Source of the DNA: Serratia sp. M24T3
Lineage (GTDB): Bacteria; Pseudomonadota; Gammaproteobacteria; Enterobacterales; Enterobacteriaceae
Assembly (NCBI RefSeq): GCF_000257645.1
Contig: NZ_AJHJ01000004.1
Location: 62,001 to 126,000, forward strand
Length of the DNA stretch: 64,000 nucleotides
Direction: 5' to 3'
A program made the position numbers and the translations under genes. Within the stretch, counting starts at the first letter, position 1, and each line of letters begins with the position of its first letter. The notes under the pieces were generated by a model. It saw only the letters and a program-made list of their open reading frames with translations, was not told the origin of the DNA and searched no databases. Of this stretch, positions 30,275 to 43,307 are shown in pieces.

Positions 30275-30387
30275 CGGCTTACCGATACAGTGGGCGATTT
30301 ATTTATAAAAGCTTTTGAGTGCCCTGGGTTGGCCGGATTTTTCCGGCTTTTTGGAAAGTAAGCAGACGATTATGGCGGGAGATATTT

Positions 30388-31281
30388 ATGACGACTGAAA
30401 ATCCGACCGTTGCTCTCATTGGGCCGGGGGCAATTGGTACGACGATAGCGGCGGCTTTGCATGAGGCCGGACGCACTCCGGTGATCTGTGGCCGCACGGC
30501 TCACCAGCGTCTGGAGTTGCGCTTCGACGGCGGCAGTGTGGTCGTCCCAGGACCCGTTCTGAACGATCCCATCAAGATTACCGGTACTTTTGATCTGGTA
30601 TTTGTCGCGGTCAAAACAACTCAGGTAGCGGCGATTGCTCCATGGCTAACTGCGTTGTGCAGCGAGAAAACCGTGGTTTGCGTACTGCAAAACGGCGTCG
30701 AGCAGGTATCGCAGTTAACGCCTTACTTGTCGGGCGGCCCGATTTTACCTTCGGTGGTTTGGTTCCCTGCACAACGTGAATCCGATGCCTCGGTGTGGCT
30801 GCGTGCCAAGCCGCGCCTGACCTTGCCGGAAACTCCGGCGACCCAAATCGTGCTGACCGCTTTGCGCGATACGCGGTGTACGGTCGATGTCGCGCAAGAT
30901 TTCACCTCTGTAGCCTGGCGAAAGCTTTTACAGAATGCGGCTGCGGGTTTGATGGTACTTACCGGGCGTCGCGCCGGAATGTTCTCCCGCCCTGATATTG
31001 CCGAGCTGGCAATGGCCTACTTGCGTGAATGTCTTGAGGTTGCTCGTGCTGCAGGAGCGATTCTTGGCGACGAAGTGCCACAGCAGATTGTTGAAGGATT
31101 CCAGAGTTATCCTGCCGACATGGGGACTTCAATTCTCGCCGACCGTCAGGCTGGACGACCGCTGGAGTGGGATATTCGCAACGGCGTGGTGCAGCGATAC
31201 GGCCGCGTCCATAACATTCCAACGCCAATGAGTGATTTGCTGGTACCACTGTTAGCCGCCTCTAGCGATGGGCCCGGCTAA
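30388..31281 (+). CDS. Ketopantoate reductase-like (ApbA/PanE family) oxidoreductase
   Basis: The 297-residue product starts at ATG 30388 after GGCGGGAG. The N-terminal Rossmann motif is GPGAIGTTIAAALHEAG. The C-terminal ApbA_C domain contains AWRKLLQNAAAGLMVLTGR and the family lysine. It is only distantly like PanE; such paralogues reduce various 2-oxo acids with NADPH. It is probably co-transcribed with the DMT exporter. A hairpin with T-run follows its stop. Confidence 0.8.
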   Translation: MTTENPTVALIGPGAIGTTIAAALHEAGRTPVICGRTAHQRLELRFDGGSVVVPGPVLNDPIKITGTFDLVFVAVKTTQVAAIAPWLTALCSEKTVVCVLQNGVEQVSQLTPYLSGGPILPSVVWFPAQRESDASVWLRAKPRLTLPETPATQIVLTALRDTRCTVDVAQDFTSVAWRKLLQNAAAGLMVLTGRRAGMFSRPDIAELAMAYLRECLEVARAAGAILGDEVPQQIVEGFQSYPADMGTSILADRQAGRPLEWDIRNGVVQRYGRVHNIPTPMSDLLVPLLAASSDGPG

Positions 31282-31778: not shown

Positions 31779-33422
31779 ATGAAAAATCGACTTTCCAGTG
31801 CTCTAGGCATAGGCCTGATGGCGCTGTCTAAACACGCGGCAGCGGCGGAAAATAAAATCGTTGATGTTGTCCTGATCGGTGGCGGAATTATGAGCGCCAC
31901 TCTAGGCACGTACCTCCAGGAACTGGAGCCTGACTGGTCGATTAACATGTACGAGCGACTGGATAGCGTGGCCGACGAAAGTTCCAACGGATGGAATAAC
32001 GCAGGCACCGGTCACTCAGCGTTGGCTGAAATGAACTATACCCCGGAAAAAGCTGACGGTTCGGTAGATATCTCCAAAGCGGTAGATATCAACGAAGCGT
32101 TCCAGATCTCTCGCCAATTCTGGTCCTATCAGGTTGAGCAAGGGGTGCTTGGCGAACCGCGCTCATTTATTACCAGCGTGCCGCACATGAGTTTTGTCTG
32201 GGGCGAAAAAAACGTAGAGTTCCTGCGTAAGCGCCACGCGGCGCTGCAAACCAGCACGCTGTTTAGCGGCATGGAATTCTCTGAAGACCGCGCGCAAATC
32301 GAAAAATGGATCCCGCTGGTGCTCGAAGGCCGTAAAGCCGGTGAGAAAGTGGCTGCCACGCGCATTGATAGCGGTACTGACGTGAACTTTGGCGCAATCA
32401 CCCATCAGCTGGTGGAATCGCTGCGCAAGAAACCAAACTTCAGCCTGAATCTTGGCCAGGAAGTTAAAAACATTAAACGTAATGCCGATCAGACCTGGAC
32501 CGTGACTTTCGCCAGCACCAAAGGCGGTCGCGAAACTTCAGTGACGACACGCTTTATCTTCATCGGTGCCGGCGGCGCATCATTAACATTGCTGCAGAAA
32601 TCCGGTATTCCAGAAGCCTCTTTGTACGGCGGTTTCCCGGTCGGTGGTGAGTTCCTGGTTACCGATAATCCAGAAATTGTCAAACGTCATCAGGCCAAGG
32701 TGTATGGCAAGGCTTCCGTTGGCGCACCGCCAATGTCAGTGCCGCACCTTGATACTCGCGTGCTGGATGGCAAAAAAGTGCTGCTGTTCGGGCCATTCGC
32801 TACCTTTTCCAGCAAGTTCCTGAAAAATGGCTCGCTGTGGGACCTGTTTGGCACCGTGAATCTGCATAACATCTTCCCGATGGTTCGCGTAGGTTTGGAT
32901 AACTTCGATTTAGTGAAATATCTGGTGGGTCAGGTGATGCTCACTGAAGAGCAGCGTTTGGCTGCATTGAAAGAATACTTCCCCGACGCGAAGAAAGAAG
33001 ACTGGCGTTTAGTGGTTGCCGGTCAGCGCGTGCAGATTATCGAGAAAGACGGCAAGCAGGGCGGCGTGCTGCGTCTCGGTACTGAAGTTGTCACCTCGCA
33101 GGATGGCTCGATTGCCGCACTGTTGGGTGCCTCACCGGGTGCTTCTACCGCTGCGCCGATCATGTTGCAGCTGATGGAGAAGGTGTTCAAAGATAAGGTG
33201 GCTTCGCCTGAGTGGCAAAGCAAGCTGAAAACCATGATCCCTTCTTACGGCCAGAAACTAAACGGAAACGTTGAGCTGGCGGAAAGAGAAATGAACCGCA
33301 CCAGCCGTATTCTGCAACTGGAAACTGCACAGCCTGCACCGGTAGCCAAGCCTGCGGCCACTGTTCAGCCAGTGGTTCATGCCCAGAAAGAAGAAGCCGA
33401 GCAGGAAGAACTCACCTCCTGA
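31779..33422 (+). CDS. mqo: Malate:quinone oxidoreductase
   Basis: Mqo oxidises malate to oxaloacetate at the membrane and reduces quinone, a branch of the citric acid cycle that avoids NADH. The 547-residue protein has an N-terminal hydrophobic stretch, the FAD motif ([20 protein letters not shown]), and the family blocks [16 protein letters not shown] and [21 protein letters not shown]. coli Mqo has 548 residues. The C-terminal 40 residues are Ala/Pro/Glu-rich and variable. A stable hairpin follows. It supports a quinone-feeding respiratory style together with the PQQ and FAD dehydrogenases nearby. Confidence 0.97.
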
Positions 33423-33551: not shown

Positions 33552-34481
33552 TTACTTTTTCTCGATACTTTCCTGATAAACCGACATATGGCTATACGCA
33601 GCATTCACCAGCGGCGTAGTCAGCCCGGCTTTTTTCGCGATCGCAACCAGATCGCCGAGGATCTGATCTGCTTCTACCGGCAGCCCTTTGATCATGTCAC
33701 GATACATTGAAGTCGTCTGGATCGAGTCTTTCTGGGAGAGTTCTTTGATGATATTGGCCGTGATATTTGCTCGCTCCTGATAGCCTCCGGCAACGACAAT
33801 CGACACCATTTCATGCACAAAGGCTTCGATAAACTCCACACCGCCTTCAGCACGCGCAACCTGGCCGATATTGCCGCGCATCAGGCAGGCAATGCCGCCC
33901 ACGCTTGCCAGGAACAGCCATTTTTCCCACATTTCGCTGATGATATTGTCGGACAGGCGTGCGGAAATTCCGGCAACCTGCAACTCGGCATCCAGTTTAG
34001 TTGCCCGTTCGCTGCGTTCTCCATTAACCTCGCCATAAATAAGCTCATTAAGCGCGGTCATTTGATGAACCTGACCTTGCTCATCCAGCGTAGCGTTGAT
34101 GCGACACAGGCCACCCAGCGCGCGTTCCTTTCCGAAGCGTTGCTGAATAATTTCCAGATGGCGCATGCCGTTGAGCACCGGGATTATCAGCGTTTGAGCG
34201 CCAACCGCGGGCGCAAATTCTTCCAGCACCGCCTCGAGTGAGAAGCCTTTAACCGTCAGGATAATCACGTCGTAGGTTTGGTTAAGATCAGAGGCGAGGA
34301 CTAATTTGGGCTGTATGGTGAAGCTTTCGTTCTTGGCCTCGACTCTCAGACCGGATTTTTTTAGCGCCTCGGCGCGTTTTTCACGTACCAGGAAAGTCAC
34401 ATCTTTACCCGCCTGCACAAGTCGCGCACCGAAGTAACCGCCCGTTGCACCGGCTCCCACCACCAGAATTCGCATACCCAT
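33552..34481 (-). CDS. Ketopantoate reductase-like (ApbA/PanE family) oxidoreductase
   Basis: The 309-residue protein shows the Rossmann motif ILVVGAGATGGYFGARLVQAG and an ApbA_C domain with the catalytic-type lysine region (EMWEKWLFLASVGGIACLMRG). It differs clearly from the other PanE-like protein in the window at 30388 and from true PanE. It may start at the first ATG or at MRILVV six bases later. It is divergent from the lactonase gene that begins the catabolic locus at 34711, but on the other strand, so membership in that locus is uncertain. The substrate is likely a 2-oxo acid. Confidence 0.82.
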   Translation of the reverse strand: MGMRILVVGAGATGGYFGARLVQAGKDVTFLVREKRAEALKKSGLRVEAKNESFTIQPKLVLASDLNQTYDVIILTVKGFSLEAVLEEFAPAVGAQTLIIPVLNGMRHLEIIQQRFGKERALGGLCRINATLDEQGQVHQMTALNELIYGEVNGERSERATKLDAELQVAGISARLSDNIISEMWEKWLFLASVGGIACLMRGNIGQVARAEGGVEFIEAFVHEMVSIVVAGGYQERANITANIIKELSQKDSIQTTSMYRDMIKGLPVEADQILGDLVAIAKKAGLTTPLVNAAYSHMSVYQESIEKK

Positions 34482-34666
34482 TTCCTTTCATCATCATGTC
34501 TTGAAGACAGAGTCGTTGAGGTTAATTGTTAATAAAAACATCTCCCTCAACATAGAGGCAACGGTCGGCGCACGTCAACTGCAGAAGAGTAAGCACTGCC
34601 TTCAATTTATCCAATTGTGTACTTTGTATTATTGTGTGAGTGCTATCACCTTTTTATCATATTGAC

Positions 34667-34677
34667 TGATTGTATGA
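34667..34677. promoter_or_regulatory. Shared motif TGATTGTATGA, site 1 (before lactonase gene)
   Basis: The 11-base word TGATTGTATGA occurs 34 bases before the lactonase start. It recurs inverted at 38369-38379 and, nine bases of it, at 42631-42639. Sites of FadR/GntR-type regulators are often AT-rich with TTGTATGA-like cores. I infer that these are operators of the GntR protein encoded at 42639. Confidence 0.5.
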
Positions 34678-34710
34678 TGGAAGGACGTTATTTAAACAGG
34701 GTGAACCGCC

Positions 34711-35514
34711 ATGTCGTCAGAAAACGAGAAATATCGCATCTACGCCATCAAGTATGCGCACCATGATCGCATGTCGAGTGAAAACTTTATTGGCGGCGAT
34801 CCTCACGACGTGCCGATGCCGCTGGATTACTACGTCTGGGCTATCGTTGGCACCGCCGCGACTTATGTGGTCGACATGGGATTCGACGCCGAAATGGCCA
34901 GCCAGCGCGGGCGTACCATCATACATAGCGTAGAGCAGGGGTTGGAGCGGGTGGGGATCATCGCCGCAGAGGTTAAAGAAGTCATCATCACTCATATGCA
35001 TTACGACCACGCCGGAAATCACGACCTGTTTCCGAAAGCGCGCTTTCACCTGCAGGACAGTGAAATGGCATTTTGTACCGGTCGCTGCATGTGCCACCAG
35101 GGCATCAGGCACGCGTTCGAGGTGGAAGACGTGAAATCGATGGTGGGCAATGTTTTTGCCGGCCGCGTGCAGTTTCATGACGGCGATTCCGAGCTGGCAC
35201 CGGGGATAACGTTACATCGCGTTGGCGGTCACTCAGATGGCTTACAGGTAGTGCGGGTTCAAACCGAACGTGGCTGGGTAGTATTGGCCTCTGACGCTTC
35301 GCATTATTACGCCAATATGCAGCGCCAGCAGGCTTACCCTATTGTTTATAATATCGGTGACATGCTCGAAGGTTTCGTGACGCTGCGGCGTCTGGCCGAT
35401 TCCGACGACCATATTATCCCCGGTCACGATCCGCTGGTGCTGCAACGCTATCCCGCATTCGACGCTGAAACAGAGCAATGGATTGCGCGGGTAGACCTTG
35501 TACCTGAGCGATAA
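34711..35514 (+). CDS. Metallo-beta-lactamase-fold hydrolase, N-acyl-homoserine-lactonase-like
   Basis: The 267-residue protein has the two-metal motif HMHYDH (His95, His97, Asp99, His100), a further metal His in VGGHSDG, Asp in LASDASHYY and His in IIPGHDP. This is the arrangement of the AttM/AiiB lactonase group. It therefore probably opens a lactone ring in the cytoplasm (no signal peptide). It is the first gene of the locus with NIPSNAP, dehydrogenase and decarboxylase-like genes, so the lactone may be a catabolic intermediate rather than a quorum signal. A direct quorum-quenching role remains possible. Confidence 0.82.
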   Translation: MSSENEKYRIYAIKYAHHDRMSSENFIGGDPHDVPMPLDYYVWAIVGTAATYVVDMGFDAEMASQRGRTIIHSVEQGLERVGIIAAEVKEVIITHMHYDHAGNHDLFPKARFHLQDSEMAFCTGRCMCHQGIRHAFEVEDVKSMVGNVFAGRVQFHDGDSELAPGITLHRVGGHSDGLQVVRVQTERGWVVLASDASHYYANMQRQQAYPIVYNIGDMLEGFVTLRRLADSDDHIIPGHDPLVLQRYPAFDAETEQWIARVDLVPER

Positions 35515-35535
35515 CCCCCTTAAAGGAGCAATAAA

Positions 35536-35862
35536 ATGATTGTAGAAATGCGTGTTTACCACTGTGCCGCAGGCCGTTTACCGGCATTACAGGAACGTTT
35601 TAGAAATATCACGCTGGCATTTTTCGACAAATACGGCATCAAGCAAATCGGCTTCTGGACCACGGTAGTTGGGCCAAGCAATCACGCGCTGACCTACATG
35701 CTGCAATGGGAAAGTCTGGCCGAACGTGAAGAAAAATGGAACGCGTTTCAGGCCGATGCCGACTGGCAGGCCAAACGCAGCGCGACTGAAGCACAGCAGC
35801 CTATTGTAGAAAGAATAGAAAACCACTTTTTAGCTCCGACGGATTACTCGGCACTGCGTTAG
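35536..35862 (+). CDS. NIPSNAP family protein
   Basis: The 108-residue product (MIVEMRVYHCAAGRLPALQE) has the ferredoxin-like NIPSNAP fold with the conserved GFWTTVVGPSN and YMLQWESLAERE blocks. Bacterial NIPSNAP proteins are often found in catabolic operons, but their chemistry is mostly unknown. It starts after AAAGGAGC, 21 bases from the lactonase stop, and is surely in the same transcript. Confidence 0.8.
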   Translation: MIVEMRVYHCAAGRLPALQERFRNITLAFFDKYGIKQIGFWTTVVGPSNHALTYMLQWESLAEREEKWNAFQADADWQAKRSATEAQQPIVERIENHFLAPTDYSALR

Positions 35863-35931
35863 TCCGCAGTTCTACAGTCCGTTTAACACAATGAGCTAGT
35901 CAACCATTCGTTGTTAAATAAGGGCCCTGAA

Positions 35932-36831
35932 ATGAATTCGCTCAAAAAGATAGGCTTTATCGGTTTGGGAATGATGGGAACGCCGATGGTGAAATGCCTG
36001 GCCTCGGCGGGCTTCACGCTGTTTATCACAGACGTCGATACCCAGCGGGTAAAAACGCTGTGCGAGGAACTCTCCGCGACGCCGCTTGATGAGAGCAATG
36101 CGGGAAAACTGGACGCGCTGATCACCATGTTGCCGAATTCCAATATTGTTGAAAGCGTGCTGCTCGACCCGGCGAAAGGCTGGGCATCACGGCTGGCGAA
36201 ACAGTCAGTGGTGATCGACATGAGCTCCTCCGAGCCGGAACGCTCGCGGCAGCTCGGCAAAACGCTGGAGGCTCAGGGCCTGCTTTATCTTGATGCGCCG
36301 GTGTCTGGTGGCGTGAAAAAAGCGGTTACCGGTGAGTTGTCGATTCTGGTCGGCGGCGATGCCGCGGTGCTGGAAGTTTGCCAGCCGCTGTTGCAGGCGA
36401 TGGGTAAAAGCATTTTACACATCGGCGCTGCTGGTGCGGGTCACGCGGCCAAGGCGCTGAATAATTATGTTTCGGCGGCCGGTCTTATCGCCACCGTCGA
36501 GGCGCTGCACATAGCCCAGCGGTTTGGGATTGAGCCTGCGGTAATGACCGACGTGCTCAATGCCTCAACCGGGCGCAGCAATACTTCCGAAAACAAGGTA
36601 AAACCGTTTATGTTGAGCGGCTCTTTCGGGTCGGGCTTTGCGCTGCAATTGATGAACAAAGACCTGAAGATTGCCCGCGCGCTGTCAACGGCGGTGGGTT
36701 ATCCAATGAAGCTGGGTGTCGCCTGCACAGATATTTGGGATCACGTCTCTCAGCAAGCTACGCCAACCACCGATCACACTGAAATGTATCGATTTTTGGC
36801 GGATGAAAAATTTTCCGACAAGCCAGAATAG
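35932..36831 (+). CDS. Beta-hydroxyacid dehydrogenase (3-hydroxyisobutyrate dehydrogenase family), paralogue 1
   Basis: The 299-residue enzyme starts at ATG 35932 after AAGGG. It has the NAD-binding GFIGLGMMGTPMVKCLASAG, the substrate-binding block DAPVSGGVKKAVTGELSILV and the catalytic-lysine motif GHAAKALNNYVSAAGL. Enzymes of this family oxidise 3-hydroxy acids, or reduce tartronate semialdehyde and succinic semialdehyde-like aldehydes. A second family member lies in the same locus at 40400. The substrate here is unknown. Confidence 0.87.
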   Translation: MNSLKKIGFIGLGMMGTPMVKCLASAGFTLFITDVDTQRVKTLCEELSATPLDESNAGKLDALITMLPNSNIVESVLLDPAKGWASRLAKQSVVIDMSSSEPERSRQLGKTLEAQGLLYLDAPVSGGVKKAVTGELSILVGGDAAVLEVCQPLLQAMGKSILHIGAAGAGHAAKALNNYVSAAGLIATVEALHIAQRFGIEPAVMTDVLNASTGRSNTSENKVKPFMLSGSFGSGFALQLMNKDLKIARALSTAVGYPMKLGVACTDIWDHVSQQATPTTDHTEMYRFLADEKFSDKPE

Positions 36832-36898
36832 TTGCTCCCGAGATTATGGCGGGGCCAAAACGCCCTTAATTTATCCTCTGCAAGCCACGGAGTTTGTT

Positions 36899-38335
36899 AT
36901 GACTCACGCTGCCCAATTCTATATCGATGGCCAATGGGTTGATCCCGTCACGCCGTCGTGGTTTGAACTGATTGACCCTTCCACCGAGCGCAGTTTTGCC
37001 CGTCTTGCAATGGGCGATGCCGCCGACGTTGACCGCGCTGTCGCTGCTGCTCGCCGCGCGTTACCGGCGTTTTCTGCGACGACCTCGGCTGAACGTCTGG
37101 CGTTATTGCAGCGCATTGTGGAAATTTATCAGCGCCGTTATGAAGAGTTTGCGGAAACTATGCGCCTCGAAATGGGCTCACCGATTACTTTTTCCCGTCA
37201 GGGACAGGCATCGCGCGGTCCGGCACATCTTAATGCTCTGATTGAAGTGCTGAAAACTTTCGAATTTGAACACCAGCAGGGCACCACGCGCCTGCGTCTT
37301 GAGCCGGTGGGTGTCTGTGGGTTGATTACCCCGTGGAACTGGCCGGTGAATCAGATTGTAGTGAAAATCGCCCCTGCGCTGGCGGCCGGTTGCACCATGG
37401 TCCTGAAACCAAGCGAATATTCGCCGCTGACCGCGCTGCTGTTTACCGAGGTGCTGGAGGAAGCCGGAGTGCCGCCGGGAGTGTTTAACCTGGTCAACGG
37501 CGACGGACCCCGCGTCGGTGCGGCAATTGCTGCGCATCCGGATATCGACATGGTGTCGTTTACCGGTTCGACTCGTGCTGGTATCGAGGTGGCAAAAACT
37601 GCTGCCGAAACCGTTAAGCGCGTAGCGCAAGAATTGGGCGGTAAATCGGCCAATATCCTGCTCGACGATGTGAATCTGCAAGATGCGGTGACCCGCGCGG
37701 TAGCGGCCTGTTTCACCAATTCTGGCCAGTCCTGTTCCATTCCAACTCGCCTGCTGGTGCCGCGCCCGCTGCTACAGGATGCCGCCGAGATTGCCCGTAA
37801 AGCGGCGCTGACCTATCGCCTCGGTCCAACGGAAGATGCAAATACTCAGCTCGGCCCGTTGGTTAATCGCAATCAGTTCGCCCGCGTGCAGAAGCTGATT
37901 CAGCAAGGTATCGATGAAGGTGCAGAGCTGGTGGTTGGCGGCGTGGGGCTGCCCGACGGATTCAGTCAGGGTTATTACGTCAAACCGACAGTTTTCAGCG
38001 CGGTAACGCCTGAAATGACCATCGCCCAGGAGGAAATTTTTGGCCCGGTGCTGTCGATAATGCCCTACGACACAGAAGAGCAGGCTATCGCCATCGCCAA
38101 CGGCACCGATTACGGTCTGGCGGCCTACGTGCAGTCTGCATCGCAAGAAAGAGCAAGATCCGTGGCTCGCCAACTGCGCGCCGGTAACGTGCATCTGAAC
38201 TATCCACCGGCCGACTTTCAGGCACCGTTCGGCGGTTATAAACGCTCGGGCAATGGGCGTGAATGGGGCGAGGCCGGATTACGGGAATATCTGGAAATCA
38301 AATCCATGGTTGGTTTTGGATTGTCTGACGATTAG
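36899..38335 (+). CDS. Aldehyde dehydrogenase (NAD(P)+)
   Basis: The 478-residue protein starts at ATG 36899 with CGGAG ahead. It shows the ALDH active site: GLITPWNWPVNQIVVKIAPAL, catalytic Glu in ELGGKSANI and catalytic Cys in NSGQSCSIPTR, followed by QEEIFGPVLSIMPY. It oxidises an aldehyde to an acid. Sitting next to a beta-hydroxyacid dehydrogenase, it may finish oxidation of an alcohol to an acid within the locus. A hairpin follows its stop, ending the first transcription unit. Confidence 0.92.
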   Translation: MTHAAQFYIDGQWVDPVTPSWFELIDPSTERSFARLAMGDAADVDRAVAAARRALPAFSATTSAERLALLQRIVEIYQRRYEEFAETMRLEMGSPITFSRQGQASRGPAHLNALIEVLKTFEFEHQQGTTRLRLEPVGVCGLITPWNWPVNQIVVKIAPALAAGCTMVLKPSEYSPLTALLFTEVLEEAGVPPGVFNLVNGDGPRVGAAIAAHPDIDMVSFTGSTRAGIEVAKTAAETVKRVAQELGGKSANILLDDVNLQDAVTRAVAACFTNSGQSCSIPTRLLVPRPLLQDAAEIARKAALTYRLGPTEDANTQLGPLVNRNQFARVQKLIQQGIDEGAELVVGGVGLPDGFSQGYYVKPTVFSAVTPEMTIAQEEIFGPVLSIMPYDTEEQAIAIANGTDYGLAAYVQSASQERARSVARQLRAGNVHLNYPPADFQAPFGGYKRSGNGREWGEAGLREYLEIKSMVGFGLSDD

Positions 38336-38338
38336 CAC

Positions 38339-38360
38339 TGTGGCAAAAAAATTTGCCACA
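38339..38360 (+). terminator. Hairpin after aldehyde dehydrogenase gene
   Basis: TGTGGCAAA (38339-38347) pairs with TTTGCCACA (38352-38360) over an AAAA loop, three bases after the stop. It probably separates two transcription units; the next unit has its own operator-like motif. Confidence 0.55.
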
Positions 38361-38368
38361 ATTCATTG

Positions 38369-38379
38369 TCATACAATCA
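38369..38379. promoter_or_regulatory. Shared motif TGATTGTATGA, site 2 (inverted)
   Basis: TCATACAATCA at 38369-38379 is the reverse complement of the word at 34667. It lies 41 bases before the start of the decarboxylase-family gene, directly after a terminator-like hairpin, where a promoter is expected. Confidence 0.5.
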
Positions 38380-38419
38380 TACATGTCAATCATGCCAGTG
38401 TGGCTAAAAGGAAAATATT

Positions 38420-38815
38420 ATGGAAAACAATTCGAGCTTTGAGAAAGGTTTTGCCAATCGTAAAGAGGTACTGGGCGCGGGACACGTAGAAAAGTCCTGG
38501 TCCAACGCCGATGACTTCAATCGCCCAATGCAAAAACTGGTCACCGAATACTGCTGGGGCGATATCTGGGGCGACCCAACGCTGAGTTTCAAAACTCGCA
38601 GCATGCTGAATATCGCCATGCTGACGGCGATGAGTCAGCACCACGAGCTTGCGGTCCACGTTAAAGGAGCACTTAACAATGGGGTGAGCAAAGAAGAGAT
38701 CCGTTCAGTGCTGATGCAGGCTGGGGTCTACTGCGGCGCGCCTCTGGCACTGGCGGCGTTTCGCGTTGCCAGTGAAGTGATTAAAACCTGGGACGAGGAA
38801 AAAGTTAAAGCCTGA
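38420..38815 (+). CDS. Carboxymuconolactone decarboxylase (CMD) family protein, PcaC-like
   Basis: The 131-residue protein has the CMD fold with TLSFKTRSMLNIAMLTAMSQ, HELAVHVKGALNNGVSKEEI and VYCGAPLALAAFRVASEV, the pattern of PcaC rather than AhpD. The CxxC pair of AhpD peroxidases is missing; only one Cys is seen. It may decarboxylate a lactone acid, or isomerise an intermediate. It starts after AAAAGGAAAA. No other beta-ketoadipate genes are present, so a role in protocatechuate breakdown is not supported. Confidence 0.85.
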   Translation: MENNSSFEKGFANRKEVLGAGHVEKSWSNADDFNRPMQKLVTEYCWGDIWGDPTLSFKTRSMLNIAMLTAMSQHHELAVHVKGALNNGVSKEEIRSVLMQAGVYCGAPLALAAFRVASEVIKTWDEEKVKA

Positions 38816-39030
38816 TGTAACGGGCATCAATCCTTTTTTCTCTAACAATATTTTTAACGATATCTGTTTCAACAACATCTGTTTCGCCAGCACCAGCAGC
38901 CTGTTCGTGAGTCAATAACGTCAAGTCAGCAAACGTCTTACCTGCATTGCCTGCCCGTTGGGCTAACGCCTGGCGGTCCCCTACACACGCATCCATAAGA
39001 GATGCGGCAATAAAGAGACTGGAGACTGAA

Positions 39031-40377
39031 ATGGAAACTCTGACCGCACAAGTCGGCGCACGTCAGGCCGAAAGTGAGCAATCCATTGATGTAAAAAGAA
39101 AGAGTGCGATTAAAGGCGCATTCTTTTCCGAATATATCGATATGTTTGATATCTACCTGCCGGTGGTCGCCCTGTCGCCGGTGCTGTTTTACTTCCAGCC
39201 GCCGAATTTATCGGCCGGTACAGAAACGATTTTAGCCTCACTGGTGTTTATCACCACGCTACTTGGCCGACCGCTGGGCGCGCTGCTGTTTGGCATCATG
39301 GCCGACAGCATTGGCCGCCGAAAAGCTTCGATCTATTCCGTCTCGGGATTCGGTGTGGTGACACTGCTGATAGCCTGTCTGCCGGGGTATCAAACTCTGG
39401 GGATCGGTGCCTACGTTTTACTGGTGCTACTGCGCTTTGTTGATGGGATTTTTCTCGGCGGCGGCTATACCGGAGCCATGCCGTTGGCCATCGAATATTC
39501 GAAAAAACACCAGCGCGGCTTTGTCGGCGGGCTGATTATCAGCGGATTCCCGGCGGCCTATATCAGCATCAACTTATTCACCATGCTGGTATTTTTCCTT
39601 TTTCCACTCAACGGAGTCAACTCGCCCTACGCTCAATGGGGTTGGCGCGTGCCGTTTGTCATTGGTGGCGTGATGGCGGCATTTTTAGCCTTCTATTACA
39701 TCTTCAAAGTTAAAGAATCAGAAATCTGGCAAAGCGAAGTGGGTGGCGAGAAACGTGAAAAACTGGCGTTGACCGAGCTACTGCGCGGCAAGAGCGGGCG
39801 TAATTTACTCCAGGTATTGCTGATGATGAGCGGCTTCTGGCTGACACAAAATATCATCACTATCTATCTGCCTACCGGTTTGCTGGTACACACCCTGCAT
39901 CTCAGCGGTCTGCAAATGACCTCGACGCTGCTGGTCACCTACTGCGTGCTGTTTTTCAGCTACATCGGTTCGGGAATGCTGGGTCAGAAATTTGGCCGTC
40001 GCCGTTTCTTCCTGATTGCCGGGCCGCTGATCGTGGTACTGGGTTCCGCGCTGCTCTATGTGCTGACTTCAGTGCCGGGGCTGTCGCTTGGCTCCATCAT
40101 GCTGCTGGTCGCGGTATTGGCAGTGCTGGTGACCTCGCCGTGGGGCGTCATTATTACCTACATCAATGAGCGATTTGTTACTGACGTACGCGCCACCGGC
40201 TTCGGCATGGGCTTTAGCCTGTCGGTGATTATCCCCTCGTTTTATGCCTTCTATATGGACTGGCTAAGCGCGTTAATGCCGCTGGCGTTGACCTCAGTCG
40301 TGCTGTTGGCGCTGGGCGGGATTATTGGAACCGTCGGGGCCTATATGGGTCCAGAAACTAAAGATGTCGATTTCTAA
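39031..40377 (+). CDS. MFS transporter, sugar/aromatic-acid-type symporter
   Basis: The 448-residue carrier starts at ATG 39031 after GGAGACTG. It has twelve predicted membrane segments, the GIMADSIGRRKAS loop after segment 2 and the QKFGRRR central loop. It resembles MHS/AAHS-type proton symporters for organic acids. In this locus it is likely the importer of the substrate. A 215-base non-coding gap before it is unusually long for the operon, and holds a small CGCATC/GATGCG inverted repeat. Confidence 0.87.
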   Translation: METLTAQVGARQAESEQSIDVKRKSAIKGAFFSEYIDMFDIYLPVVALSPVLFYFQPPNLSAGTETILASLVFITTLLGRPLGALLFGIMADSIGRRKASIYSVSGFGVVTLLIACLPGYQTLGIGAYVLLVLLRFVDGIFLGGGYTGAMPLAIEYSKKHQRGFVGGLIISGFPAAYISINLFTMLVFFLFPLNGVNSPYAQWGWRVPFVIGGVMAAFLAFYYIFKVKESEIWQSEVGGEKREKLALTELLRGKSGRNLLQVLLMMSGFWLTQNIITIYLPTGLLVHTLHLSGLQMTSTLLVTYCVLFFSYIGSGMLGQKFGRRRFFLIAGPLIVVLGSALLYVLTSVPGLSLGSIMLLVAVLAVLVTSPWGVIITYINERFVTDVRATGFGMGFSLSVIIPSFYAFYMDWLSALMPLALTSVVLLALGGIIGTVGAYMGPETKDVDF

Positions 40378-40399
40378 CGCTTTTTTGGAGAACAACCTG

Positions 40400-41299
40400 A
40401 TGAACACCGATCGGATTGGATTTATTGGTTTAGGAAATATGGGCGGCCGCATGACGCGCTGCCTGGTTGACGCCGGAATAACTGTGCTGGGTTTTGACCC
40501 GGTAAGCAGCCGCGCCGCCGCTGCCGGAGCCAGCGCGGCGGCTTCAACGGCTGACGTGATGGGTTTCGCCGACGTGATAATGCTCTCACTGCCGGACAGC
40601 AAAGTGGTGGAGTCGGTGGTCGAGGGCGATAACGGCCTGCTGGCAAACTGTCGCAAAGGCCAGACGGTGATTGATCTCAGCACCGCTGCTGCCAGTTCGA
40701 CTATTCGCCTGCACGGCCTGTTTGCCGCCAAAGGTGTTGCCTATATTGATGCCGGTATTTCCGGCGGCGCGGCGGCGGCCGAAAAAGGCACTTTAACGCT
40801 GATGGTTGGCGGCGAAGAGTCTGCGATTAACGCGATAGCCTGGGCGTTTAAACCGATCGCCGCCAAGGTGATTACCATGGGCGAAAGTGGCAGCGGCCAC
40901 ACCACCAAGTTGCTGAATAATTTCCTGAACGCGGTCAGTCTGGCCGCCACCGCCGAGGTGATGGTGGCGGGTAAAAAGGCTGGATTGGACTTGCACCGCC
41001 TGCTCGACGTGCTTAACAGCAGCAGCGGCGTAAATTTCGCCACTCTGAATCGTTTCCCGAAAATTGTCGACGGCGATTATCTCGAAGGCGGCCTGAGCGG
41101 CAAGCTGATGACCAAAGACGTGGCGCTGTATGTCGATCGCGTGCGCGAACTGGGAGTGGTGTCGCTCAATGCCTCAGGTCCGCTGGCCAGCTTTGGCCTC
41201 GCGACTTCTTTGGGCTATGGCGACGTGATAAGCAATCGGGTGGTGGACGCGATTGGCGACGTATCCGGCGGTATTCGCCTGCACAGTAAATCTCAATAA
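40400..41299 (+). CDS. Beta-hydroxyacid dehydrogenase family, paralogue 2
   Basis: The 299-residue enzyme starts at ATG 40400 after TTTGGAG. It has the NAD motif GFIGLGNMGGRMTRCLVDAG, the block DAGISGGAAAAEKGTLTLMV and the lysine motif GHTTKLLNNFLNAVSL. It has the same length as paralogue 1 at 35932 but many differences in the substrate loop, so the two probably act on different intermediates, or on different stereoisomers. It is 22 bases from the MFS gene. Confidence 0.87.
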   Translation: MNTDRIGFIGLGNMGGRMTRCLVDAGITVLGFDPVSSRAAAAGASAAASTADVMGFADVIMLSLPDSKVVESVVEGDNGLLANCRKGQTVIDLSTAAASSTIRLHGLFAAKGVAYIDAGISGGAAAAEKGTLTLMVGGEESAINAIAWAFKPIAAKVITMGESGSGHTTKLLNNFLNAVSLAATAEVMVAGKKAGLDLHRLLDVLNSSSGVNFATLNRFPKIVDGDYLEGGLSGKLMTKDVALYVDRVRELGVVSLNASGPLASFGLATSLGYGDVISNRVVDAIGDVSGGIRLHSKSQ

Positions 41300-41311
41300 A
41301 GGAGACAGACG

Positions 41312-41701
41312 ATGAAAGTATTTCATGGCAGAGATAAAGGCGTGATTTCAGAACAGCGCAGCAGCACCTTTAGCGGCGAAGTGTGGGGCGATCCGGTGAT
41401 GCCAACCACCGACAATGTCACCATTAATAACGTCTTCTTCGCCCCCGGCGGCCGCACTTATTGGCATACCCATCAGCAGGGGCAAATCTTGCAGGTGATC
41501 TCCGGCAGCGGTTGGGTTTGCGTCGACGGCGAGCAACCGCAAGCGATTCGCGCCGGCGACACAGTGTGGATACCGGCAGACGAACGCCACTGGCACGGCG
41601 CCGGGAAAGACAGTTTTATGCTGCATACCGCCACCTCATTAGGTAAGACCGATTGGCAGGAAGAAGTCGCCGAAGAGGTGTATCAGCAGGCGGTACGTTA
41701 A
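41312..41701 (+). CDS. Cupin protein similar to cupin hydroxynitrile lyases
   Basis: The 129-residue single-domain cupin has the metal motifs YWHTHQQGQILQV (two His and one Gln) and PADERHWHGA (further His). This order, with FAPGGRTYWHTH and VWIPADERHW, is that of the manganese cupin hydroxynitrile lyases such as GtHNL and their CMD-linked relatives. It begins after AAGGAGAC, 12 bases from the previous gene. Whether it cleaves a C-C bond of a hydroxy compound here is inference. Confidence 0.82.
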   Translation: MKVFHGRDKGVISEQRSSTFSGEVWGDPVMPTTDNVTINNVFFAPGGRTYWHTHQQGQILQVISGSGWVCVDGEQPQAIRAGDTVWIPADERHWHGAGKDSFMLHTATSLGKTDWQEEVAEEVYQQAVR

Positions 41702-41776
41702 TCGAGCCAGTCAACTCACAGAATTTTACGGCTGCGCGCATTGGCGGTGGCCGTAGCAACGGGAGAAACCAGCATC

Positions 41777-42547
41777 ATGAATCTCAGCGACCAGCAGCAA
41801 ACCGTAAAAGCGGCGTTTATTCGCCAGCATCAATTCTGGGACGCGCAGTGGGAAAGCCTGCTGCGTCAGGACGTAGATTTTGTCGAAGGTTATCTTAAAT
41901 TTTCCGCCGTACCGTGGAAGAAAAATCATCTGGAAAACAAAGTTAAGGCATTTATAGCTCTCAGCGCCAGCGTTGCTTCCACTCATCTTTATCAGCCTGG
42001 CATCGCTCAACATCTGCGGGCTGCAGTGGCGTTTGGCGCGACGCAGCAGGAGCTTGTCGAAGTGTTGGAGCTCACCAGCACGCTGGGCATTCACGCCTCC
42101 AACGTTGGCGTTCCGCTGCTGCTTGAGGTGCTGGAAGAAGAAGGGCTGCGCAATGGCCCAGAGCCGCTGGACGAGCAGCGCGAGACCTTGAAGCAGGCGT
42201 TTATCAAGAATCGGGGTTACTGGCATGCATCATGGGACGGTTTGCTGGAGCTGGACCCGGATCTCTTTGATGCCTATATTGAATTTTCATCTGTGCCGTG
42301 GCGTACCGGCGTGCTGGAGCCAAAAATCAAAGAGCTGATTTACTGTGCTTTCGACGCCTCGGCGACACATTTATACAAGCAGGGTCTCAAGCTGCATATG
42401 CGCAACGCAATCAATTACGGCGCAACCAGGGAGGAGATTATGGAGGTGCTGGAGATTGTTAGCGTAATCGGCATTCACGGTGCACTGGTGGCTGCGCCGA
42501 TGGTCGAGCAGGCCTTGGCGCAGGCCAGCTTGTTGCACGCTTCCTGA
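41777..42547 (+). CDS. Tandem CMD-family protein (two CMD domains)
   Basis: The 256-residue product starts at ATG 41777 after GGGAGAAACC. It contains two copies of one domain: FIRQHQFWDAQWESLLRQDVD with VAFGATQQELVEVLELTSTLGIH, and FIKNRGYWHASWDGLLELD with INYGATREEIMEVLEIVSVIGIH. The copies align along about 120 residues. No CxxC is present. Family members are annotated as carboxymuconolactone decarboxylases but chemistry is often unknown. It ends the operon before the regulator gene. Confidence 0.82.
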   Translation: MNLSDQQQTVKAAFIRQHQFWDAQWESLLRQDVDFVEGYLKFSAVPWKKNHLENKVKAFIALSASVASTHLYQPGIAQHLRAAVAFGATQQELVEVLELTSTLGIHASNVGVPLLLEVLEEEGLRNGPEPLDEQRETLKQAFIKNRGYWHASWDGLLELDPDLFDAYIEFSSVPWRTGVLEPKIKELIYCAFDASATHLYKQGLKLHMRNAINYGATREEIMEVLEIVSVIGIHGALVAAPMVEQALAQASLLHAS

Positions 42548-42630
42548 GCCGGCTTTAGCCTAAAAGATAAGCGTCGCTTTTCATTAATCGGGCCGCTATG
42601 ATGACAGTAACTTTTATTTGTCGGACAGGA

Positions 42631-42639
42631 ATACAATCA
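42631..42639. promoter_or_regulatory. Shared motif, site 3 over the GntR start codon
   Basis: ATACAATCA, nine bases of the inverted motif, ends on the A of the GntR start codon. Binding here would block the gene's own expression. It is a shorter match than the other two sites, so confidence is lower. Confidence 0.35.
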
Positions 42640-43307
42640 TGTCTTCTGATATCGGCCTGGTGCGGCCTGAAACGCTGCGTTTTCAGGTGGAAAATGCATT
42701 ACGACAAGCGATTATCAACGGGCGTTTTGCCCCCGGCGAGCGGCTGATCGAGCGCGAACTCTGTGAAACGCTGGGCGTCAGCCGTACCTCGATTCGCGAA
42801 GCGCTGCGCAAGCTGGAGGCTGAAAAGCTGGTGGATATCGTGCCGCATAAAGGGCCAATCGTTGCCAGTATTTCTATTAAAGAAGCCGCCGATCTCTATG
42901 CGCTACGCGGATTGCTGGAGGGTTTTGTCGCCCGCGAGTTCTCGCAGACTGCCAGCGAAGCTGATATTGCCAAGTTTGCTGCCTCGGCTGCTGAACTGCG
43001 CAAAGCCGGAGAGGCGCAGGATCAGGCCGGAGTGTTGCAGGCCAAGAATGCGCTTTACGGCATTATGTTGGAACGCTGTGGCAATGAGCTGGTGCGTGAA
43101 GCCTTGACCAGCCTGCATTCGCGGGTCAACTTACTGCGTGCGACCTCACTGATGCACCCTGACCGCCTGCCGCACAGTCTGGAGGAAATTGATTCGCTGT
43201 TACAGGCAATTAAAGCGCGTGACGGCGATGCGGCAGAGAAAGCGGCCAGACTGCACGTCACTAATGCGCAGAAAGTGGCGTTGGAAATGCTGAGTAAAAC
43301 GGCTTAA
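42639..43307 (+). CDS. GntR-family regulator, FadR/FCD subgroup
   Basis: The 222-residue protein starts at ATG 42639 (MSSDIGLVRPETLRFQVENAL). The winged helix (GRFAPGERLIERELCETLGVSRTSIREAL) is followed by an all-helical FCD ligand-binding domain, with ALRGLLEGFVAREF, NALYGIMLERCGNELV and a final His-bearing helix (AARLHVTNAQKV). FCD regulators respond to small carboxylic acids, often the first substrate of the adjacent pathway, and usually repress. It is the likely controller of the 34.7-42.5 kb genes. Confidence 0.88.
   Translation: MSSDIGLVRPETLRFQVENALRQAIINGRFAPGERLIERELCETLGVSRTSIREALRKLEAEKLVDIVPHKGPIVASISIKEAADLYALRGLLEGFVAREFSQTASEADIAKFAASAAELRKAGEAQDQAGVLQAKNALYGIMLERCGNELVREALTSLHSRVNLLRATSLMHPDRLPHSLEEIDSLLQAIKARDGDAAEKAARLHVTNAQKVALEMLSKTA

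Follow-up and report, generated by a model that had tools for sequence, protein, structure and literature searches.

A ten-gene locus in Serratia sp. M24T3

The window analysed here is a stretch of 64,000 nucleotides from Serratia sp. M24T3 (contig NZ_AJHJ01000004.1, positions 62,001 to 126,000), a plant- and soil-type enterobacterium with a genome of 5.25 Mb. At positions 34711–43307 its forward strand carries ten genes, in the order MBL, NIPSNAP, HIB1, ALDH, CMD1, MFS, HIB2, cupin, CMD2 and GntR, which encode enzymes, a carrier and a regulator. An earlier note had described this region as a catabolic locus on one strand, under a single GntR regulator and belonging to no familiar pathway. Its gene set stands: all ten genes are found on the + strand with Pfam matches above the gathering cut-off, and the motifs that it quoted (HMHYDH in MBL, GQSCS in ALDH and HTH...ERHWH in the cupin) are present in the translations. 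Of its coordinates, 34667..43307, the end is correct, whereas the start falls in the promoter region, the first gene beginning at 34711. Here we report that these genes recur together in distant bacteria, that many of the loci share a probable operator and that the set may form an undescribed inducible operon for a carbon source. The genes are as follows (each Pfam bit score given exceeds its gathering cut-off).

34711..35514, +, MBL: metallo-beta-lactamase-fold hydrolase, putative lactonase (Lactamase_B PF00753, 46.5 bits)
35536..35862, +, NIPSNAP family protein (PF07978, 83.6 bits)
35932..36831, +, HIB1: beta-hydroxyacid dehydrogenase of the 3-hydroxyisobutyrate dehydrogenase (HIBADH) family (NAD_binding_2 PF03446 and NAD_binding_11 PF14833)
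36899..38335, +, ALDH: aldehyde dehydrogenase with active-site motif GQSCS (Aldedh PF00171, 518.6 bits)
38420..38815, +, CMD1: single-domain protein of the carboxymuconolactone-decarboxylase (CMD) family, PcaC-like (PF02627, 83.6 bits)
39031..40377, +, MFS: major facilitator superfamily transporter of the metabolite/H+ symporter type (MFS_1 88.5 bits, Sugar_tr 82.2 bits)
40400..41299, +, HIB2: second beta-hydroxyacid dehydrogenase, DAG(I)SGG type (NAD_binding_2 and NAD_binding_11)
41312..41701, +, small cupin related to manganese hydroxynitrile-lyase cupins (Cupin_2 PF07883, 42.7 bits)
41777..42547, +, CMD2: tandem CMD-domain protein with two diverged repeats (PF02627, 69.2 bits, two stretches)
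42618..43307, +, GntR/FCD transcriptional regulator (FCD PF07729, 83.3 bits; GntR PF00392, 71.4 bits)

Start codons were refined by reading to ATG 35932 for HIB1, ATG 40400 for HIB2 and ATG 41777 for CMD2. The MFS gene starts at ATG 39031, which is Met29 of a longer frame and is conserved in at least 97% of 50 aligned sequences. GntR starts at TTG 42618 or at ATG 42639, the latter preceded by an AGGA-type site.

The gene set recurs in distant bacteria

A search with CMD2 alone gave 424 pattern stretches, 208 of which encode a relative, and the best 80 loci were kept (45 proteobacterial and 35 others, from Actinomycetota, grouped by record title). Partners were sought in these loci with the proteins of the window, at a threshold of only 25% identity for MBL; some loci are cut by contig ends, so that misses are upper bounds. 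HIB2 (at least 55% identity) was present in 77 of the 80 loci, the cupin in 75, MBL in 74, a HIB1-like protein in 71 and CMD1 in 65, and this five-gene core was complete in 58 loci spanning Proteobacteria and Actinomycetota. The proteobacterial loci also carry MFS (43 of 45), ALDH (42), NIPSNAP (42) and GntR (36, at least 60% identity); the other loci have MFS in 2 of 35, and NIPSNAP, ALDH and GntR in none. In a reverse search of plasmids, HIB2 matched ten records (E ≤1e-50; 71–82% identity), and in all ten CMD2 and the cupin lie no more than about 1.5 kb away. Annotated examples include plasmid pHS1 of Sodalis praecaptivus, with all ten genes in identical order, Paraburkholderia, and Acidiphilium, where a short-chain dehydrogenase/reductase (SDR) replaces ALDH. 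Furthermore, CMD2 distances correlate with those of the nine partners (r 0.55–0.93; label shuffles, p ≤ 0.0005).

Co-occurrence elsewhere, which the earlier note had proposed as a check, is therefore strong. Because the gene set recurs in such distant genomes, it is more than a chance clustering. That unrelated genes happen to lie together here is barely credible: the families are common when taken singly, which is all that speaks for it, but the recurrence, the shared operator described below, the correlated divergence and the plasmid records contradict it. The core does not diverge evenly. In Pseudomonas and Actinomycetota, MBL has only 25–40% identity to that of the window, whereas HIB2 stays at 58–79%; from these sequences, the lactonase step therefore seems exchangeable, and HIB2, CMD2 and the cupin do not.

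Variants of the locus differ in their additional genes. In Burkholderiales and Pseudomonas, the set is joined by an SDR, an MmgE/PrpD protein and a third enzyme of the HIBADH type; in Actinomycetota it is joined by another SDR and, in some loci, by DUF6282 and a PotBC-like ABC transporter. A transporter is always in the set, or is swapped for another carboxylate-type one. In one Burkholderiales locus (L040:11075–11833) and ten others, a GpmA-like phosphoglycerate mutase (TIGR01258, 252.4 bits, cut-off 81.7) lies between CMD2 and GntR and may point to a glycerate-type product. Together, these neighbour families are suggestive, rather than decisive, of acids as the substrate.

Some members of the families occur in other company. 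A plasmid cluster of Marinobacter sp. M3C (L122), a reduced relative of the locus, shares ALDH, a HIBADH-type enzyme, a CMD protein (52%), the cupin (56%) and FCD-type GntR proteins (41 and 50%); unlike the locus of the window, it has a TRAP dicarboxylate-type transporter beside the cupin, and the stretch read contains no MBL, NIPSNAP, tandem CMD2 or second HIBADH. A Streptosporangiaceae cluster (L085:2435–12444) may represent another lactone pathway that uses the same tandem CMD: besides CMD2 (56%) and an MBL protein, it encodes two alpha/beta hydrolases, an amidohydrolase, an SDR and a Peripla_BP_4/BPD_transp_2 ABC transporter. Polysaccharide genes adjoin CMD2 in another locus (L062). On Sinorhizobium meliloti pAK76 (L124:1846–9698), a cupin of about 51% identity has a CMD protein and aldo/keto reductases as neighbours, which shows that cupin and CMD are paired in other contexts too. 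Plasmid relatives of ALDH at 60% identity have varied neighbours (choline dehydrogenase, trehalose synthase, ABC transporters) and gave no clue to the substrate.

A conserved palindrome and a CRP-like site

The operon spans of 39 loci (of 84) with a GntR at least 60% identical to that of the window were searched for an operator. The palindrome TTGTNNNACAA occurs at 36 sites in 34 of these 39 loci, against 0–3 sites in ten local shuffles, and in each positive locus one copy lies 60–96 nt ahead of a gene. That gene is MBL in two enterobacteria, Salipiger and Methylobacterium, HIB1 in most Caballeronia, and CMD1 in Paraburkholderia and Caballeronia glathei; the site thus shifts together with the start of the transcription unit. 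The two remaining sites lie inside HIB2 of a Sodalis locus (L010) and 240 nt ahead of MBL in L087. Three of the five loci that lack an exact copy have one with a single mismatch before CMD1 (L014, L023, L060). The other 45 loci hold nine sites in seven loci, compared with 0–2 in shuffles, and five of these nine lie 43–106 nt ahead of CMD1 or MBL (in Acidiphilium, two Pseudomonas, a Paraburkholderia contig and an actinomycete). GntR/FCD regulators have palindromic operators of the TNGTNNNACNA type, to which TTGTNNNACAA conforms, and it is probably the operator of this GntR. The window contains the following regulatory features.

38366..38376, +, putative GntR operator TTGTCATACAA, 54 nt before CMD1; sole TTGTNNNACAA site in the 64-kb window
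34670..34680, +, degenerate copy of the putative GntR operator, TTGTATGATGG, before MBL and directly after a -35-like TTGACT (34662–34667)
34635..34650, +, predicted CRP-like site TGTGAGTGCTATCACC, ahead of the first gene, MBL
38339..38360, +, terminator-like stem-loop between ALDH and CMD1; site count below shuffle expectation
42618–42628, near-operator TTGTCGGACAG, one mismatch, overlapping the GntR start

The degenerate copy TTGTATGATGG aligns with TTGTATGACAA of Sodalis (L010) and TTGTCATACAA of Raoultella (L048). In both of these genera, and in Caballeronia and Methylobacterium, the intact site is flanked by a -35-like and a -10-like hexamer, a placement that would suit a repressor. A near-operator at the GntR start is also found in 8 of the 39 related loci, including all four enterobacterial ones.

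The CRP-like site, which follows what we take to be the CRP consensus, TGTGAN6TCA, is present in all five enterobacterial promoters (the window, Rouxiella silvae L014, Sodalis L010 and L023, and Raoultella L048), 33–35 nt upstream of the operator position. It is absent from all 32 non-enterobacterial operator upstreams and occurs in 21 of 20,000 shuffled 80-nt upstreams. An operator combined with a CRP-like site fits an inducible, catabolite-controlled carbon-source operon.

Because the stem-loop and the operator at 38366–38376 separate ALDH from CMD1, the ten genes probably form two or more transcription units. Ten stem-loops of this kind were found in the region against 12.1 expected from shuffles, so the structure is not significant alone; Paraburkholderia has a AAAAATTTTGC-like run at the equivalent position. 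A second perfect site in the same genome, TTGTCATACAAT (L121:6816–12545, G000:C15), might suggest a wider regulon, but it has a GntR-type gene of its own nearby. This second site lies between an ABC-transporter ATPase-like gene and a D-2-hydroxyacid-dehydrogenase-like gene, ahead of the latter (names by reading).

Enzyme families and alternative pathways

The residues that we take to be catalytic or metal-binding in their families (among them the lysine and asparagine of HIB enzymes and the metal site of cupins) are conserved in 97% or more of the aligned sequences. They are H95, H97, D99 and H100 of MBL (HxHYDH, 78 sequences), DAPVSGG, K175 and N179 of HIB1, K171, N174 and N175 of HIB2, C279 and E245 of ALDH, H52, H54, Q58, H93, H95 and H105 of the cupin (80 sequences) and H105, H197, H206 and H233 of CMD2. 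Because of this conservation, all the enzymes look functional. Superfamily membership is likewise clear: MBL has the HxHxDH metal motif of its fold, HIB1 and HIB2 have both domains and the lysine–asparagine pair (K175/N179 and K171/N175) of beta-hydroxyacid dehydrogenases, and the regulator has a GntR winged helix and an FCD domain.

Among the matches listed, none of the ten proteins reaches a named NCBIfam cut-off (for ALDH, among the best 25 of 42 matches); each is therefore a family member without an assigned reaction. HIB1 and HIB2 score 203.7 and 179.9 bits against the HIBADH equivalog cut-off of 291.6, and the closest solved chain to both is 3cky, a 2-hydroxymethylglutarate dehydrogenase. 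The best NCBIfam match of MFS is the metabolite/H+ symporter TIGR00883, at 185.2 bits (cut-off 443.45). The cupin scores 119.7 bits against (R)-mandelonitrile lyase (NF049940, cut-off 140) and has the metal-site residues of such cupins when aligned with 4bif. It matches the solved TM1010 (2f4p) and Granulicella cupins (4bif, 4uxa, 8oz8), the latter presumably hydroxynitrile lyases, over about 110 residues that include the metal-site histidines and glutamine; it differs from the Granulicella enzymes in falling below the mandelonitrile lyase cut-off and in lying in a locus without a cyanohydrin context. For CMD2, the closest solved chain is 2q0t (E 1.8e-107), a putative gamma-carboxymuconolactone decarboxylase subunit. 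The letters of 2q0t equal CMD2 of Paraburkholderia xenovorans LB400 over both stretches compared, and in that genome (L070) NIPSNAP, HIB1, ALDH, CMD1, MFS, HIB2, cupin and GntR surround CMD2. 2q0t is thus the CMD2 of the same operon, but is an orphan structure with no function attached.

CMD1 brings aromatic catabolism into consideration. Its closest NCBIfam model among the matches listed is PcaC (TIGR02425), at 136.3 bits against a cut-off of 155.7 (CMD2, 44.0 bits). The locus might thus belong to an aromatic or ring-cleavage branch, with a butenolide or muconolactone-like product as the acid, PcaC-like roles for CMD1 and CMD2, MBL in place of the enol-lactone hydrolase PcaD and NIPSNAP acting like muconolactone isomerase. 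A lactonase and a PcaC-like protein in one locus speak for such a branch, as does the distant relative cluster L085, where alpha/beta hydrolases and an amidohydrolase accompany CMD2 and an MBL protein. However, neither the locus nor the annotated recurrent neighbour families include a ring-cleaving dioxygenase, thiolase or CoA-transferase, and beta-hydroxyacid dehydrogenases, of which there are two or three here, are to our knowledge not part of ring-cleavage routes. We regard this branch, taken with all its assignments, as unlikely. The beta-ketoadipate pathway itself, dismissed in the earlier note, does not fit: although a PcaC-like CMD protein beside a lactone hydrolase and an acid symporter resembles a protocatechuate system, CMD1 is below the PcaC cut-off and the other nine genes are not pca genes. 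No pcaHG, pcaB, pcaIJ or pcaF, nor any other protocatechuate gene, is among the ten, to which the search for them was confined, and the locus adds two beta-hydroxyacid dehydrogenases, the cupin and the tandem CMD.

MBL raises a second alternative, in which it would destroy N-acyl homoserine lactones or a toxic lactone while the other genes consume the fragments. Its best NCBIfam models are indeed homoserine lactonases, but the scores are far below the cut-offs (AiiA 59.7 of 375 bits, AidB 53.4 of 360, AhlS 48.9 of 475, AttM 47.9 of 390); its best-matching solved structure is 8x78. Moreover, MBL is the most variable core gene, so the lactonase is not the defining part, and we consider signal quenching or detoxification distinctly improbable.

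The attKLM/blcABC operons catabolise gamma-butyrolactone with a lactonase, a 4-hydroxybutyrate dehydrogenase and a succinate-semialdehyde dehydrogenase, the hydroxybutyrate enzyme being of a different family from the HIB type. They resemble the locus in combining an MBL-fold lactonase, a hydroxyacid dehydrogenase and a semialdehyde dehydrogenase under regulation, and a counterpart with a HIB-type 4-hydroxybutyrate dehydrogenase would suit the order lactone, hydroxy acid, semialdehyde, acid through MBL, HIB1 and ALDH. Yet ALDH reaches only 340.9 of 646.35 bits for succinate-semialdehyde dehydrogenase, MBL is as far from AttM as stated above, and five further conserved enzymes (CMD1, CMD2, cupin, HIB2 and NIPSNAP) would be left without a task. 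Such a counterpart therefore has very little probability.

No described pathway matching the locus was found in the open-access literature searched, subscription papers lying mostly outside it. The part of PMC6449761 covered does not mention the locus, and that of PMC5615479 deals with Trichomonas CMD proteins. CMD, oxidoreductase or epimerase genes adjoin ECF41 sigma factors, and those CMDs have a CxxC motif, according to the portion of PMC3426412 covered; as described there, that association differs from the present locus.

Distribution and history

HIB2 is present in four of the six genomes of the genus examined (own included). Of 295 genomes of the family, four have the locus, a count that includes its own genome and the same species; among 394 genomes of the order, and likewise among 398 of the phylum, its own genome is the only carrier. 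Escherichia coli has no match to it by DNA. In two genus relatives without the enzymes (G001 and G002) the flanking genes lie close together with the regulator kept between them, as GntR (77%) and NIPSNAP (88%) in G001 and as GntR (70%) alone in G002. On account of these remnants, a recent insertion into an empty site was rejected. The arrangement is best read as a loss, the locus having been present in an ancestor, with stepwise growth as the alternative; the GntR that survives without the enzymes (L111, L112) is either left over from such a loss or controls some other target. In a tree of CMD2, HIB2 and the cupin, Rouxiella groups with Sodalis sp. dw_96 and Caballeronia, and Sodalis praecaptivus and Raoultella group with alphaproteobacteria. 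Because enterobacteria are mixed with other orders in this tree, transfer of the locus between orders is likely.

The flanking ketopantoate-reductase-like (33552–34481) and malate:quinone-oxidoreductase-like (31779–33422) genes, named from their translations, were rejected as members, since both also occur in G001 and G002. The former flanks the locus in all six genus genomes examined, and a second ketopantoate-reductase-like gene (30319–31281, also named by reading) lies about 2 kb away from it.

A proposed pathway for a lactone-forming acid

We propose, with a probability of about 0.6, that the locus is an undescribed inducible operon for the use, as a carbon source, of a small carboxylic acid that either occurs as a lactone or is converted by way of one. 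The proposal builds on the gene content, the co-inheritance, the conserved palindrome placed as an operator and the CRP-like site, as observed above, from which we infer the substrate class and every reaction step. The MFS symporter would import the acid, and MBL would open the lactone. HIB2 and HIB1 would oxidise (or one of them reduce) beta-hydroxy acids and their semialdehydes with NAD(P), and ALDH would turn a semialdehyde into an acid. Decarboxylation or cleavage of the beta-oxo intermediate to central metabolites would then fall to CMD1, CMD2 and the metal cupin, possibly helped by NIPSNAP as an isomerase. GntR would repress through TTGTNNNACAA in or near the promoter until released by the substrate or an intermediate, and in enterobacteria CRP would probably activate, placing the operon under catabolite control.

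No coenzyme A (CoA) ligase, kinase or aldolase is encoded among the ten genes, so the route appears to use free acids. That the imported compound is an acid is suggested indirectly by TIGR00883 as the best match of MFS and by the TRAP transporter of the Marinobacter relative; a hydroxymethyl-branched or tetronate-like acid is a guess from the HIB families. A more specific version, which we offer tentatively and would not bet on, is a CoA- and kinase-free route of Proteobacteria and Actinomycetota in which the tandem CMD and the hydroxynitrile-lyase-like cupin jointly cleave or decarboxylate a beta-oxo acid made by the two dedicated beta-hydroxyacid dehydrogenases.

Several observations weigh against the proposed operon function. 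The enzymes each fall below the named equivalog cut-offs listed, which leaves family chemistry to suggest the steps. None of the 35 non-proteobacterial loci has ALDH or NIPSNAP, and 13 of them lack CMD1, so the pathway may differ between bacteria; in three loci (L062, L084 and L085) CMD2 occurs without HIB2, cupin or HIB1. The correlated divergence of CMD2 and its partners is partly due to shared ancestry. Finally, the 12-base motif TTGTCWKACAAT occurs five times in the whole genome and its reversed control also five times, so the motif alone defines no regulon.

The putative operator offers a handle on the substrate: whichever ligand frees GntR from TTGTCATACAA is expected to be that substrate or a product close to it. 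If the proposal is true, the pathway spans plant- and soil-associated Paraburkholderia, Caballeronia, Pseudomonas, Rouxiella, Sodalis and many Actinomycetota, and its enzymes are currently mis-named by homology as lactonase, carboxymuconolactone decarboxylase, 3-hydroxyisobutyrate dehydrogenase and mandelonitrile lyase. It would also give a natural function to hydroxynitrile-lyase-type cupins and to the orphan structure 2q0t.

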